From IMG/VR virus record IMGVR_UViG_3300023284_000377, positions 1 to 32,020 of that record: a DNA stretch of 32,020 nucleotides; one strand, 5' to 3'. The first letter of the stretch is position 1. Every line of letters starts with the position of its first letter. A program made the translations under genes and the position numbers. Positions 1 to 18,484 of this stretch are shown piece after piece. A model generated the notes under the pieces. The model was not told the origin of the DNA. It saw only the letters and a program-made list of their open reading frames with translations, and made no database searches. Source of the DNA: a virus.

Positions 1-222
1 AATCCTTGCCATCGTAGCCAGATACGCAGCCGCGACTTCTTGTGATCTTGCGTCATCCTTGCGGTCACGATACCAAATCTACAGCGATGAACCGATAGTT
101 CCTATTACATACAGGTTTGTTATTGTTCTTAAGGCGCTGGAGATTTGGTATCGTGACCGCAAGGATGACGCAAGATCACAAGAAGTCGCGGCTGAGTATC
201 TGGCTACGATGGCAAGGATTGT
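1..222. repeat. 80-bp inverted repeat at the left window end
   Basis: Bases 1-80 are the reverse complement of 143-222 with a single mismatch seen, separated by a 62-bp spacer (81-142). The inner copy is in frame with the gene that follows, so the outer copy is the intruding one. A single strand would fold back into an 80-bp hairpin. The simplest reading is an amplification or assembly chimera; a natural hairpin end is less likely. Confidence 0.95.
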
Positions 223-3968: not shown

Positions 3969-4415
3969 ATGCCTGAACTACATGGCATAACAACCCGCGT
4001 TCTTAAAGGTGAAGATGAAACCCGTGTACGAGAACTTTTACAAGGCAAGGGGTATGAATGGTTAAGGGATTTGGACTGGACAAATCCCGAGACATGGGTG
4101 GCTGCTGAAGTTGATGAAATAATAGAGGCTTTTATACAGGTATCCGGAGGAAGACCAATAGCCCGCCTTGAGTTTTTAGTCACAAATGATAATCTAAATC
4201 CTGTAAAGAAGGCCAAAATCGTTAAGGTTCTTATTTTGACAGCAACTAATTATTTAAGATTGTCGGGGTCAGATATGGCAATGGGAGTTGTTCCATTTGA
4301 GAAAAAAAGTTTCAAGAAATTATTAAAAAACAGGGGAGGATTTGTCGTCCTCTCAGGAAACATGATCGCAATGAGGTTTAAACATGGGAAGCACAACAAC
4401 TACGACAGTCAGTGA
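3969..4415 (+). CDS. GNAT-fold-like protein in the virion gene row
   Basis: A 148-aa protein with the rhythm of a reduced GCN5-type acetyltransferase fold: an N-terminal helix pair with RELLQGKGYEWL, strands AAEVDEIIEAFIQV and ARLEFLV, a long helix KKAKIVKVLILTATNYLRLSG, and a last strand pair ending NMIAMRFKHG. The glycine-rich acetyl-CoA loop is not evident, so catalysis is doubtful. Small GNAT-like proteins are often found among podovirus structural genes. Its last 32 bases overlap the next gene, whose start lies inside it. Confidence 0.45.
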   Translation: MPELHGITTRVLKGEDETRVRELLQGKGYEWLRDLDWTNPETWVAAEVDEIIEAFIQVSGGRPIARLEFLVTNDNLNPVKKAKIVKVLILTATNYLRLSGSDMAMGVVPFEKKSFKKLLKNRGGFVVLSGNMIAMRFKHGKHNNYDSQ

Positions 4416-5748
4416 GCAGCGCAGGATTACGCCTGACCCGCCCTCTCCAGAGGAGGTGGCTCTTTTACGACAACAGGCTAAAATAGCCTCGTCTATCTCT
4501 AAAAGCATAGACTTGACCAGTGGTCTGTTTGCTGAACAACTGGAAGCCATACAACCTCTTCTGGATTTGGCAGCAGAAGAAGCCCAAATTAGAGGAGAGG
4601 TTTTAACCCCAGAGATACAGACAAGAATTATTGAAAATGAGGTTGCTTTAAGAGAAGCACAGGTTTCAATAATCCAGCAACAGTTGGAAAGTGAAGTCGC
4701 TTTGGAACCTCAAAGACGGCAATTCCTTGAAAGCCAACTAGCGACAGCACAAGCTGATTTACAGAGAGAACAGGAACTCGCCCCAATAAGAGATCAGGCA
4801 GTAAGGCAACAGTTTGATATTCTTGCCAGAGGTGGTGTACCAACGGCAGAACAAACACAGTTTTTAGATGAGGCCACGCGCCGCACCATAGAAGCTGGCG
4901 GGTCTGATATTCAGGCTTTCGCTGATGAGCAATTAAGACTAATAGGCCAAGAGCTAGGCCCGTCATTAGGTTTAAGAGGTGCTTCGCCTTCAGGAAGGTT
5001 CCAGGGGGGCGATACCCCACTAATTGATAGAGGCCAATTGGTAGGTAGAGAAGCACTAAGACAATTTGGTCAATTGCAATCAACCGCCAGAGGACAGGAA
5101 GCTGCTGCGCTCTCTGGTTTGATAGGAGCTAACTTGCAATCAGCCGGAGGGATTACAGGACTTTCAGCCAGTTTAACTGACGCCGCACAAAGAAACAGAA
5201 TAGCCTTGTCAGGCGCTTTAGACCCTAATGTTCAAGGTGTAGGAGCAGGAGCTATATTAGGACAACCTAGCGCCTTGTTAGGACAGACCTTTGGTCTGGG
5301 ATTAGGCGTGTCAGGTCTTCAAACTGGGATTCCTCAGACATTAGGTAGTCTGCAAAGCTTCCGCGCAGCGACAGCAGATCAGTCCCTTACTGGGAGAACT
5401 GTTTCTGAAACTTTCGACCCATTAACATCATTTGCTAATATCCTTAGCGGCGCTGGGGCTGCTGCTACTGCTTTTTCTGATATAAGAGTGAAAGAAAACA
5501 TAGAGGAAATTACTGTTCTTGATAAACTGGATCAAATAGAAGCCAAGTCGTTCAACTTTATAGGCAACGATGAACCAAGAATAGGTGTTATGGCTCAAGA
5601 TGTAGAGAAGGTCTTCCCCGCACTCGTTAAAGAAATAGATGGGGTTAAGACAGTAGATTATGGTGGACTGGCGGCTATTGCCATACAAGCTATTAAAGAA
5701 CTGATTAAAAAACAAGAATTTCAGATAGCAAGATCGGTAGGAATGTAA
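4384..5748 (+). CDS. Virion protein with C-terminal S74 self-cleaving chaperone domain
   Basis: Residues 1-150 are a glutamine/glutamate-rich coiled coil and the middle is glycine/serine-rich. The last 90 residues are a peptidase S74 (endosialidase-type) intramolecular chaperone: SDIRVKENI at 365-373 with the catalytic Ser365 and Lys370, then the characteristic GVMAQDVEKVFPALV and VDYGGLAAIAIQAIKEL. In known members this domain drives trimer assembly and then cuts itself off before the serine. Here the body upstream is helical rather than beta-helical, and the gene sits beside the large internal-protein genes, which is unusual for a fibre chaperone. Confidence 0.8.
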   Translation: MGSTTTTTVSEQRRITPDPPSPEEVALLRQQAKIASSISKSIDLTSGLFAEQLEAIQPLLDLAAEEAQIRGEVLTPEIQTRIIENEVALREAQVSIIQQQLESEVALEPQRRQFLESQLATAQADLQREQELAPIRDQAVRQQFDILARGGVPTAEQTQFLDEATRRTIEAGGSDIQAFADEQLRLIGQELGPSLGLRGASPSGRFQGGDTPLIDRGQLVGREALRQFGQLQSTARGQEAAALSGLIGANLQSAGGITGLSASLTDAAQRNRIALSGALDPNVQGVGAGAILGQPSALLGQTFGLGLGVSGLQTGIPQTLGSLQSFRAATADQSLTGRTVSETFDPLTSFANILSGAGAAATAFSDIRVKENIEEITVLDKLDQIEAKSFNFIGNDEPRIGVMAQDVEKVFPALVKEIDGVKTVDYGGLAAIAIQAIKELIKKQEFQIARSVGM

Positions 5749-10579: not shown

Positions 10580-10590
10580 GATAGATATTA

Positions 10591-10655
10591 TGGAGTGTCG
10601 ATCTGGGCATAAACAGATTTATAAATCGCCGCCGGTGAAAACCCGCCGCACTCCA
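10591..10655 (+). ncRNA. Candidate structured RNA leader, three-way-junction type
   Basis: A closing stem of seven pairs (TGGAGTG 10591-10597 with CACTCCA 10649-10655) encloses a hairpin ATCTG/CAGAT (10601-10605 with 10614-10618) and a short GGT-GAAA-ACC hairpin (10634-10643) with a GNRA tetraloop. Loop bases GGC 10606-10608 could also pair with GCC at 10628-10633. The element lies in the gap before the gene at 10689. I could not match it to a known riboswitch or ribozyme. Confidence 0.4.
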
Positions 10656-10688
10656 CTTGAAACAAGCAGAAGCAATAAGGAGAAGAAA

Positions 10689-10991
10689 ATGTTTACGATT
10701 AAAGCCTATAGTGATGATTGCCAACGAACTTATGAGGCCATGTCCTATAACACTGATGCCTATGATGCTAGCTCTGATGGCCAAGACAGCCAAAAGTTCT
10801 ATTTTAAAGATGCAAACGATGGCGGTAAAATTAAACAAATAGATATTACAAATGATCGTTATGCCAAAGAAAATCATTCTCTTTGGAAGTTTGAAGGATG
10901 CGCAGACAAGATAATTATTGAAAACAGCAACGGGAAGACCACAGATATATTTCGTGCGTCAACTAATCCCGAAGCGATTGTGAAGAAATAG
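10689..10991 (+). CDS. Hypothetical 100-aa soluble protein
   Basis: The start at 10689 is chosen because a strong ribosome site (AAGGAGAAGA) sits just before it. An in-frame ATG at 10590 would add 33 basic residues, but it would translate straight through the folded leader element. The protein is polar and beta-rich (FTIKAYSDDC, KFYFKDANDG, DKIIIENSNG), with no domain I recognise. It is bracketed by two candidate structured RNA regions. Confidence 0.6.
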   Translation: MFTIKAYSDDCQRTYEAMSYNTDAYDASSDGQDSQKFYFKDANDGGKIKQIDITNDRYAKENHSLWKFEGCADKIIIENSNGKTTDIFRASTNPEAIVKK

Positions 10992-10996
10992 ATATT

Positions 10997-11181
10997 TGGT
11001 GGCCCATTAAGTTGGCGAATATGGCAAACATGGAAGCCTTCGGACTTTCTAGTGTTTAAGCTCCTCGGACATGGGATGTTGCCGAATAGATGCACCAACC
11101 ACCAGACTCTATGTGGGCGGGATGCGAAGGAACAAGCACATTTAGCTGGCAAGCTATTTACTGCCCTTGGCCCGCCCATAT
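10997..11181 (+). ncRNA. Candidate structured noncoding RNA, two domains
   Basis: Domain one: TGGTGG 10997-11002 pairs with CCACCA 11099-11104. Inside it AAACAT 11026-11031 can pair with GTGTTT 11052-11057, closing a GGAAG/CTTTC stem capped by a C(UUCG)G tetraloop (11032-11049), and CCCAT 11003-11007 can pair with ATGGG 11071-11075. Domain two: TGGGCGGG 11114-11121 pairs perfectly with CCCGCCCA 11171-11178, enclosing AAGG/CCTT and a TAGCT-GGCA-AGCTA hairpin. No convincing coding frame or poly-T tract is present. It does not look like a tRNA, tmRNA or RNase P RNA. Confidence 0.45.
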
Positions 11182-11214
11182 TAATATAAATCCACTAATC
11201 AGAAGGGATATAAT

Positions 11215-17562: not shown

Positions 17563-17774
17563 CACCCATTCTCCTCTATATAATATTCATAATATCTTGA
17601 GTGGCCTGTTTTCGTCCAATACTTTCCTATCGGGATGCCTTTAGCTTTCATGTCAGACATTCGTTTCTGTGCAGAATTTATCCACCCATCATCAAGGTTT
17701 TCAAGCTCTCTCTTCGAGTGTGGTCTTATTTTAAGCGCCCTATATATTCTTCGTTCCTGTGGTGATAGTTTCAT
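17562..17774 (-). CDS. Small winged-helix-like protein
   Basis: Residues 1-60 read like a winged helix: MKLSPQERRIYRALKIRPHS, then LDDGWINSAQKRMSDMKAKG as a recognition helix, then the wing YWTKTGHSRYYEYY. It overlaps the Rad52-type gene by ATGA and may regulate this block. Assignment is by pattern only. Confidence 0.55.
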   Translation of the reverse strand: MKLSPQERRIYRALKIRPHSKRELENLDDGWINSAQKRMSDMKAKGIPIGKYWTKTGHSRYYEYYIEENG

Positions 17775-18484
17775 GACGCGGCCTCCTCTACCTTTTTAAG
17801 TTTCTGTGCGTGTTTGGCACATTCTTTCCGTGTTTCATCATACATTTCAGGGGATAATTGTTTAAGAATATCCAAGAAAGGTTTACAGTCCATCCATGCT
17901 TTTTCATAATCAGTTATGTATTTGGTTACCCAAATAGCATCCAGGATGTCAGCCTTTAATTCCTCGGCACTTTTTATTGGTACGTCTTCCTCTTTTACAG
18001 GTTTGCCCCCGAGGTTATGTCTAAGTCTTGCTAAAGTAATATCGTCAAACTTATAGGACTTCCCTTGTTTCTGAATACCTACCCACGGGGTTCCTGCTGA
18101 ATATAAATATCTTCCTATTCCATGTTGGACTGCGGCTCTCTTGAAGGCGTCAGAGAACTGCCCCTTTTCTCCTTCATAAGAGGTTTGGCCAGCACCGTCT
18201 GATTTCCATATCCAAACAACCTTGCTATGGTCTATAAGTTCTTTCTTCCCCCCAGAGTGGCCGGTGTCTGCTATTCCAATTTTACAACAGACAGCCCCAT
18301 TAACAGGCGAGAATTCAGATTGCCAACCATCAGGCCCACATACCTCATCAAGCCTATCCATTACGTCTCTTGCGTCCACATAAGCCAATGCCATACCCTT
18401 GGTTTTGTCAGCGTTAGTAGCCCCTACCCTGAAATGAACTGTCTCAGGATTGAATGGTTCTGCCAGCTTTTCCCAAATACTCAT
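17771..18484 (-). CDS. Rad52/Rad22-type single-strand annealing protein
   Basis: The N-terminal two thirds has clear Rad52-family features: MALAYVDARDVMDRLDEVCG, GWQSEF, and the most conserved block EGEKGQFSDAFKRAAVQHGI followed by GRYLY. Such phage proteins form rings that anneal complementary single strands in recombination and repair. The C-terminal third is helical and lysine-rich. Partner genes downstream are the Ref-like nuclease and DUF1367. It lies at the centre of the leftward early operon with overlapping stops and starts on both sides. Confidence 0.85.
   Translation of the reverse strand: MSIWEKLAEPFNPETVHFRVGATNADKTKGMALAYVDARDVMDRLDEVCGPDGWQSEFSPVNGAVCCKIGIADTGHSGGKKELIDHSKVVWIWKSDGAGQTSYEGEKGQFSDAFKRAAVQHGIGRYLYSAGTPWVGIQKQGKSYKFDDITLARLRHNLGGKPVKEEDVPIKSAEELKADILDAIWVTKYITDYEKAWMDCKPFLDILKQLSPEMYDETRKECAKHAQKLKKVEEAAS

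Follow-up and report, generated by a model that had tools for sequence, protein, structure and literature searches.

A probable conserved structured RNA set at unrelated places in two kinds of phage

Positions 10992-11214 of a 32,020-base viral record, which we call the window and which was analysed at its full length, form an intergenic stretch with tail, S74-type fibre and lysis genes on both sides. The question raised by this locus is whether the stretch encodes a noncoding RNA and, if so, where that RNA begins and ends and what it might do. The endolysin of the window is nearest to pelagiphage endolysins (53-57%); its stabilization protein has its nearest named relatives, 21-29% identical, in pelagiphages and Manatee Spring phages. 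A sequence-only reading of the region had proposed a two-domain phage RNA, on the grounds that its density of stems and special tetraloops was unlikely to arise by chance. All the stems it listed were found in place when read directly from the sequence. The argument from density does not hold. The 223-nt region folds at -65.1 kcal/mol with a z score of -1.26, and 21 of 200 shuffled sequences fold equally well, so stem and tetraloop density is by itself no evidence. The first domain alone (z -0.08) lies at the shuffle mean; the sole unusually stable part is a hairpin at 11106-11186 (z -3.96). The observation as a whole is partly confirmed, and it is conservation rather than stability that makes part of the region real.

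The homologue set consists of three sequences, from the window and from two other IMG/VR contigs. The first of these, L005, belongs to a related phage with the RNA at the same locus; it was found by a search with the 100-amino-acid gene adjoining the RNA, and is 79% identical to the window in nucleotides across 10655-11093. The second, L006, is a 4.7-kb contig from another, unrelated phage, found by a gapped DNA pattern. Window and L006 align by blastn at 80% over 111 columns, with an E value of 1.6e-15 for a database of 5e10 bases. That match spans exactly 10997-11104, even when the query carries about 200 nt extra on each side, and its limits coincide exactly with the outer 6-bp stem. Each of the three records has one copy. 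The features of the locus, in window coordinates, are as follows.

10689..10991, + strand: 100-aa gene that stops 5 nt short of P1; 78% amino acid identity to its L005 counterpart
10997..11104, + strand: conserved RNA unit of 108 nt, outer stem to outer stem; homologues at L005:5303-5409 and L006:3475-3581
10997..11002, + strand: P1, 5' strand UGGUGG, paired with CCACCA at 11099-11104; 6 bp, invariant in all three sequences
11003..11011, + strand: conserved one-sided bulge, YCCAUUAAG
11012..11017, + strand: P2, 5' strand UUGGCG, paired with 11093-11098; one-sided changes G-C/G-U and U-A/U-G
11018..11022, + strand: internal loop, 5' side, AAUA(U/A); four of five bases invariant
11023..11027, + strand: P3, 5' strand GGCAA, paired with UUGCC at 11079-11083; closes the three-way junction
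11034..11047, + strand: P4, variable hairpin, beginning 7 nt after GGCA in all three sequences
11062..11076, + strand: P5 hairpin, with invariant loop region UCGGACAU
11084..11092, + strand: internal loop, 3' side, GAAUAGAUG; invariant in all three sequences
11106..11186, + strand: GC-rich hairpin, the second domain of the sequence-only reading; in the window only, not in L005 or L006

The fold of 10997-11104 is thus an outer stem, a one-sided bulge, a second stem, an internal loop and a GGCA/UGCC stem leading to a three-way junction, whose arms are a hairpin that varies and a second hairpin whose loop is invariant. P1 never varies, and therefore gives no covariation support alone; P2 has one C.A mismatch in the window. 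P3 shows a compensatory change from A-U to U-A in L005, P5 one from U-A to C-G in L006, and P4 has two-sided changes at three pairs. The P4 loop is UUCG in the window (11039-11042) and in L005, and is replaced by an AUU triloop in L006, which, with the ordinary folding energy, further undercuts the argument from tetraloops. L005 has a 1-nt insertion immediately ahead of the internal loop strand GAAUAGAUG. In all three sequences YCCAU of the bulge could pair with AUGGG of P5, with one change from C-G to U-G, a possible pseudoknot or switch.

When all possible helices in the three-sequence alignment, hand-adjusted in the P4 arm and near the 3' end, were ranked by two-sided changes, P4, P3 and P5 came first. 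A model-made alignment, which leans to its own structure, has seven pairs with two-sided changes against a shuffled mean of 2.6, a count reached in 1 of 500 shuffles, and the signal is lost when the structure is slid along the sequence. Across the three sequences, invariant positions make up 29 of 31 in the unpaired core, 37 of 54 among paired bases and 7 of 34 in the variable arm. Such a distribution is what a functional RNA shows when an exchangeable scaffold carries a working core, and it is the comparative evidence of homologues, exact boundaries and two-sided changes that makes 10997-11104 significant. A conserved structured RNA very probably exists here. For the first domain the proposal of a phage noncoding RNA is well supported: there are three homologues, the stems covary and the unpaired core is conserved. 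The two outcomes named beforehand as telling against it, homologues without compensatory changes or clear coding conservation, were both looked for, and the RNA stood. The statement that the region has no coding frame needs amending, as a minus-strand reading frame of 101 aa (10874-11179) crosses it. Conserved coding on either strand was nevertheless rejected as unlikely, since 1-nt indels between the homologues put any frame out of register.

The two-domain unit first described is not supported. The conserved unit stops at 11104, and the GC-rich hairpin behind it, with its 8-bp stem (TGGGCGGG at 11114-11121 paired with CCCGCCCA at 11171-11178) and GGCA-capped inner hairpin TAGCT-GGCA-AGCTA (11143-11156), gives way in L005 and L006 to sequence that is not related to it. 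What stands at this position in L005 is a weaker hairpin, itself unrelated. No T run follows the hairpin at 11106-11186, which is therefore not a standard terminator.

Two different kinds of phage carry the RNA unit, at places that are unrelated, and at both it looks acquired. In L004, a closer relative of the window in IMG/VR whose record holds no copy, the flanking genes are about 30 bp apart and most of 10580-11214 is extra in the window; the absence of the stretch from this near relative marks it as an acquired module. In L006 the order is GIY-YIG nuclease gene, terS, RNA and terL (large terminase), with terL starting 9 nt after the RNA. The terL product shares 44% identity with the one from Synechococcus phage Ssp-JY42, whose terS and terL genes lie almost side by side; this empty site makes the RNA in L006 look inserted as well. 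The neighbours differ, being the 100-aa gene and a gene of 56-63 aa in the window and L005, and terS and terL in L006. The 100-aa gene accompanies the RNA in L005, and is absent beside it in L006. It has no match in Pfam or PHROG, and the structure model of its product (mean pLDDT 54.7) is too poor to use. Upstream of this gene, at window 10588-10658, lies a second structured leader (GGAGTG ... CACTCC, z -2.68), which is not in L005 and has no Rfam match. The nuclease gene of L006 (2467-3018), immediately ahead of terS, is a possible homing element.

Mobility between phages, a gene plus folded element layout in the window and L005 and the nearby GIY-YIG nuclease gene in L006 would also suit a folded site acting as DNA, such as a recombination, packaging or homing target. 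Column-shuffle z scores, -4.3 on the plus strand and -4.4 on the minus strand, are alike and agree with such a site; the strand of the RNA rests on gene direction, not on folding. The RNA is oriented with gene direction in all three contigs, however, and compensated stems with invariant loops fit RNA better, so that we regard a DNA-level site as very unlikely. Integron attC cassettes resemble the window and L005 relative to L004 in that a gene followed by a folded element is present or absent as a unit. They differ from this element, whose loops are sequence-conserved and whose L006 copy stands without such a gene; the attC R boxes are absent, a search for RYYYAAC/GTTRRRY boxes at the two ends having found no properly spaced pair in the three loci.

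No Rfam family reaches its gathering cut-off in the window, and no tRNA or tmRNA was found there; no catalogued family matches the RNA above threshold, and it is most likely a new phage-borne structured RNA. VIPR vrRNA, in which 9-16 tandem YNNGG repeats precede a structured tail (PMC13142463), was rejected, the repeat tract being absent when the sequence is read. The flanking proteins of the window led to few relatives. Two more DNA-pattern scans of viral contigs and one of bacterial and archaeal genomes gave no further true homologue, their remaining matches being without the other conserved blocks, and blastn of the RNA against phages and plasmids returned only chance pieces of 20-27 nt. 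A covariance model of the phage RNA found nothing in 1577 genome searches covering four groups of bacteria.

One catalogued family, Methylophilales-1 (RF03011), deserves comparison. By cmscan, the L005 sequence gave a full-length match at 13.2 bits (E 8.1), far below the gathering score of 79.9 bits, and the window and L006 gave nothing. Among six bacterial loci, the best match of the phage model is the Methylophilales-1 RNA of L048. Searched against the phage loci, the Methylophilales model scores highest on the RNA of L005, and a smaller set put L006 in second place; these reciprocal full-length matches are weak, each search scoring at chance level (E 0.9-8) with a family picked from 4227. 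Six members of the family were aligned (four of the six over the family cut-off) and pairs were counted on a structure that combines the Rfam line with the members' alignment. The structure that RNAalifold itself produced, which is without the GGCA/UGCC stem, was dropped. Both RNAs have an outer stem, an internal loop (GAAUAA / GA-AUAGAU), a GGCA/UGCC stem and a three-way junction bearing a variable and then a conserved-loop hairpin, within 95-108 nt. The core motif GAAUAAGGCA ... UGCCGAUAUAGAU closing the junction is mostly shared, with 1-nt differences, although at chance-level scores, and in Methylophilales-1, as in the phage RNA, GAAUAAGGCA is followed by the variable hairpin, the conserved-loop hairpin, 2 nt and UGCCGA-AUAGAU.

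The differences are also clear. The phage RNA has an extra 9-nt bulge that splits the outer stem, and its P5 loop differs from that of the second bacterial hairpin. In all six Methylophilales-1 loci a -10-like box precedes the outer stem at a distance of about 5 nt, whereas none is recognisable before the phage RNAs, which thus show no promoter just upstream of the kind a free-standing sRNA would have. From this box, the bacterial RNAs are probably free sRNAs. In L048-L053 these boxes, which directly precede the outer stem, read TATAATG, TAGAATG or the like; a terminator-like hairpin lies behind the RNA in L049 and L051. The shared layout could mean that the phage RNA is a divergent member of a Methylophilales-1 superfamily, captured from a bacterium and serving as a variant or mimic of that RNA. 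Yet no match appears in the phage records at E 10 in a standard-filter search, and the phage endolysin is nearest to pelagiphages. Two Methylophilales-1 RNAs, compared with phages by blastn, gave chance pieces only. We consider this kinship doubtful, and chance-level scores for a family chosen from so many make it a lead rather than a membership.

Neither a promoter above chance for the RNA element nor a terminator directly behind it was found, and the RNA is therefore probably made within late mRNA. As we picture it, the RNA would be transcribed as part of the rightward late transcript and would work through its nearly invariant unpaired core. It would be a stable RNA within, or released from, the late mRNA, with the core binding a host factor during late infection and the variable P4 arm serving as a structural spacer only. 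The best overall explanation, to which we give a probability of roughly 0.4, is that a phage-borne structured RNA, made within late mRNA, exerts its effect by way of the conserved core. Host-factor binding by the core is proposed because of the conservation pattern and the loose resemblance to the promoter-driven Methylophilales-1 RNAs; it would be the likeliest mechanism, held tentatively and with low confidence in each option. We place a factor-binding RNA slightly ahead of a self-cleaving element and a cis-acting one.

A ribozyme of an undescribed class could instead cleave the late transcript, which is long; the cut would release the message of the 100-aa gene at its 3' end in the window and L005, and that of terL at its 5' end in L006. 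Such an element would be consistent with compact stems and invariant loops, with neighbouring genes that are not the same throughout and with placement 5 nt behind a stop codon (window) or 9 nt before a start codon (L006). Prophage hammerheads offer a precedent: they flank genes that are not constant, and one of them is found 13 nt ahead of a start codon (PMC3088659). Phage and prophage hammerheads share with this RNA a small folded form, a place in phage gene runs and neighbours that are not consistent, and some, like the L006 copy, stand immediately ahead of a start codon (PMC3088659). This RNA differs in having no hammerhead match and no known cleavage. Membership of the known Rfam self-cleaving ribozymes was rejected, as no family model matched even at loose thresholds (E up to 5-10); moreover, no cleavage site can be named and the element is longer than most small ribozymes. 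Self-cleavage is an unlikely explanation.

We hold it similarly improbable that the element acts in cis on termination or next-gene translation, as a put-like antiterminator or a terL leader. It is placed in co-directional gene runs, and in L006 a CCACCCC/GGGGTGG hairpin precedes the RNA while terL starts without a clear ribosome-binding sequence. There is also the precedent of put, a phage RNA that alone can act on RNA polymerase (PMC9378689). But the gene downstream is not the same and its distance varies, being 9 nt in L006 and about 110 nt for the window, no early promoter is near, and the architecture is not that of put. The put RNA of HK022 has about 70 nt in two stem-loops downstream of early promoters (PMC9378689). 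It is phage-encoded within a phage transcript, as is this RNA, and acts as RNA; the present element has 108 nt, a three-way junction and a place in late and structural gene runs. Membership was rejected on size, architecture and location.

A bolder version of the core-acting RNA within late mRNA would make it a new class of small RNA, catalytic or factor-binding: a self-contained module of about 108 nt, passing from phage to unrelated phage and regulating late messages. Such a module might be a bacterial RNA of the Methylophilales-1 type that was captured and reshaped; we rate this bolder version rather unlikely. Structured RNAs known to travel between unrelated phages as independent units are few. 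The activity of this one can be tested directly with three short transcripts, since its boundaries are exact, its core hardly varies, empty sites are there for comparison and a bacterial counterpart is possible.

Some other features of the window record were observed. The 50 bases at window 31-80 match the reverse strand of L004 (9769-9818, 86%) while 85-2651 match the forward strand of L004 beside that place, and an inverted assembly artefact may account for the start of the contig. The protein encoded at 4384-5748 ends in an S74-type region resembling an intramolecular chaperone, and it matches the C-terminal ends of many tail-fibre families. A gene for a Rad52/22-family recombinase lies at 17771-18484 on the minus strand.
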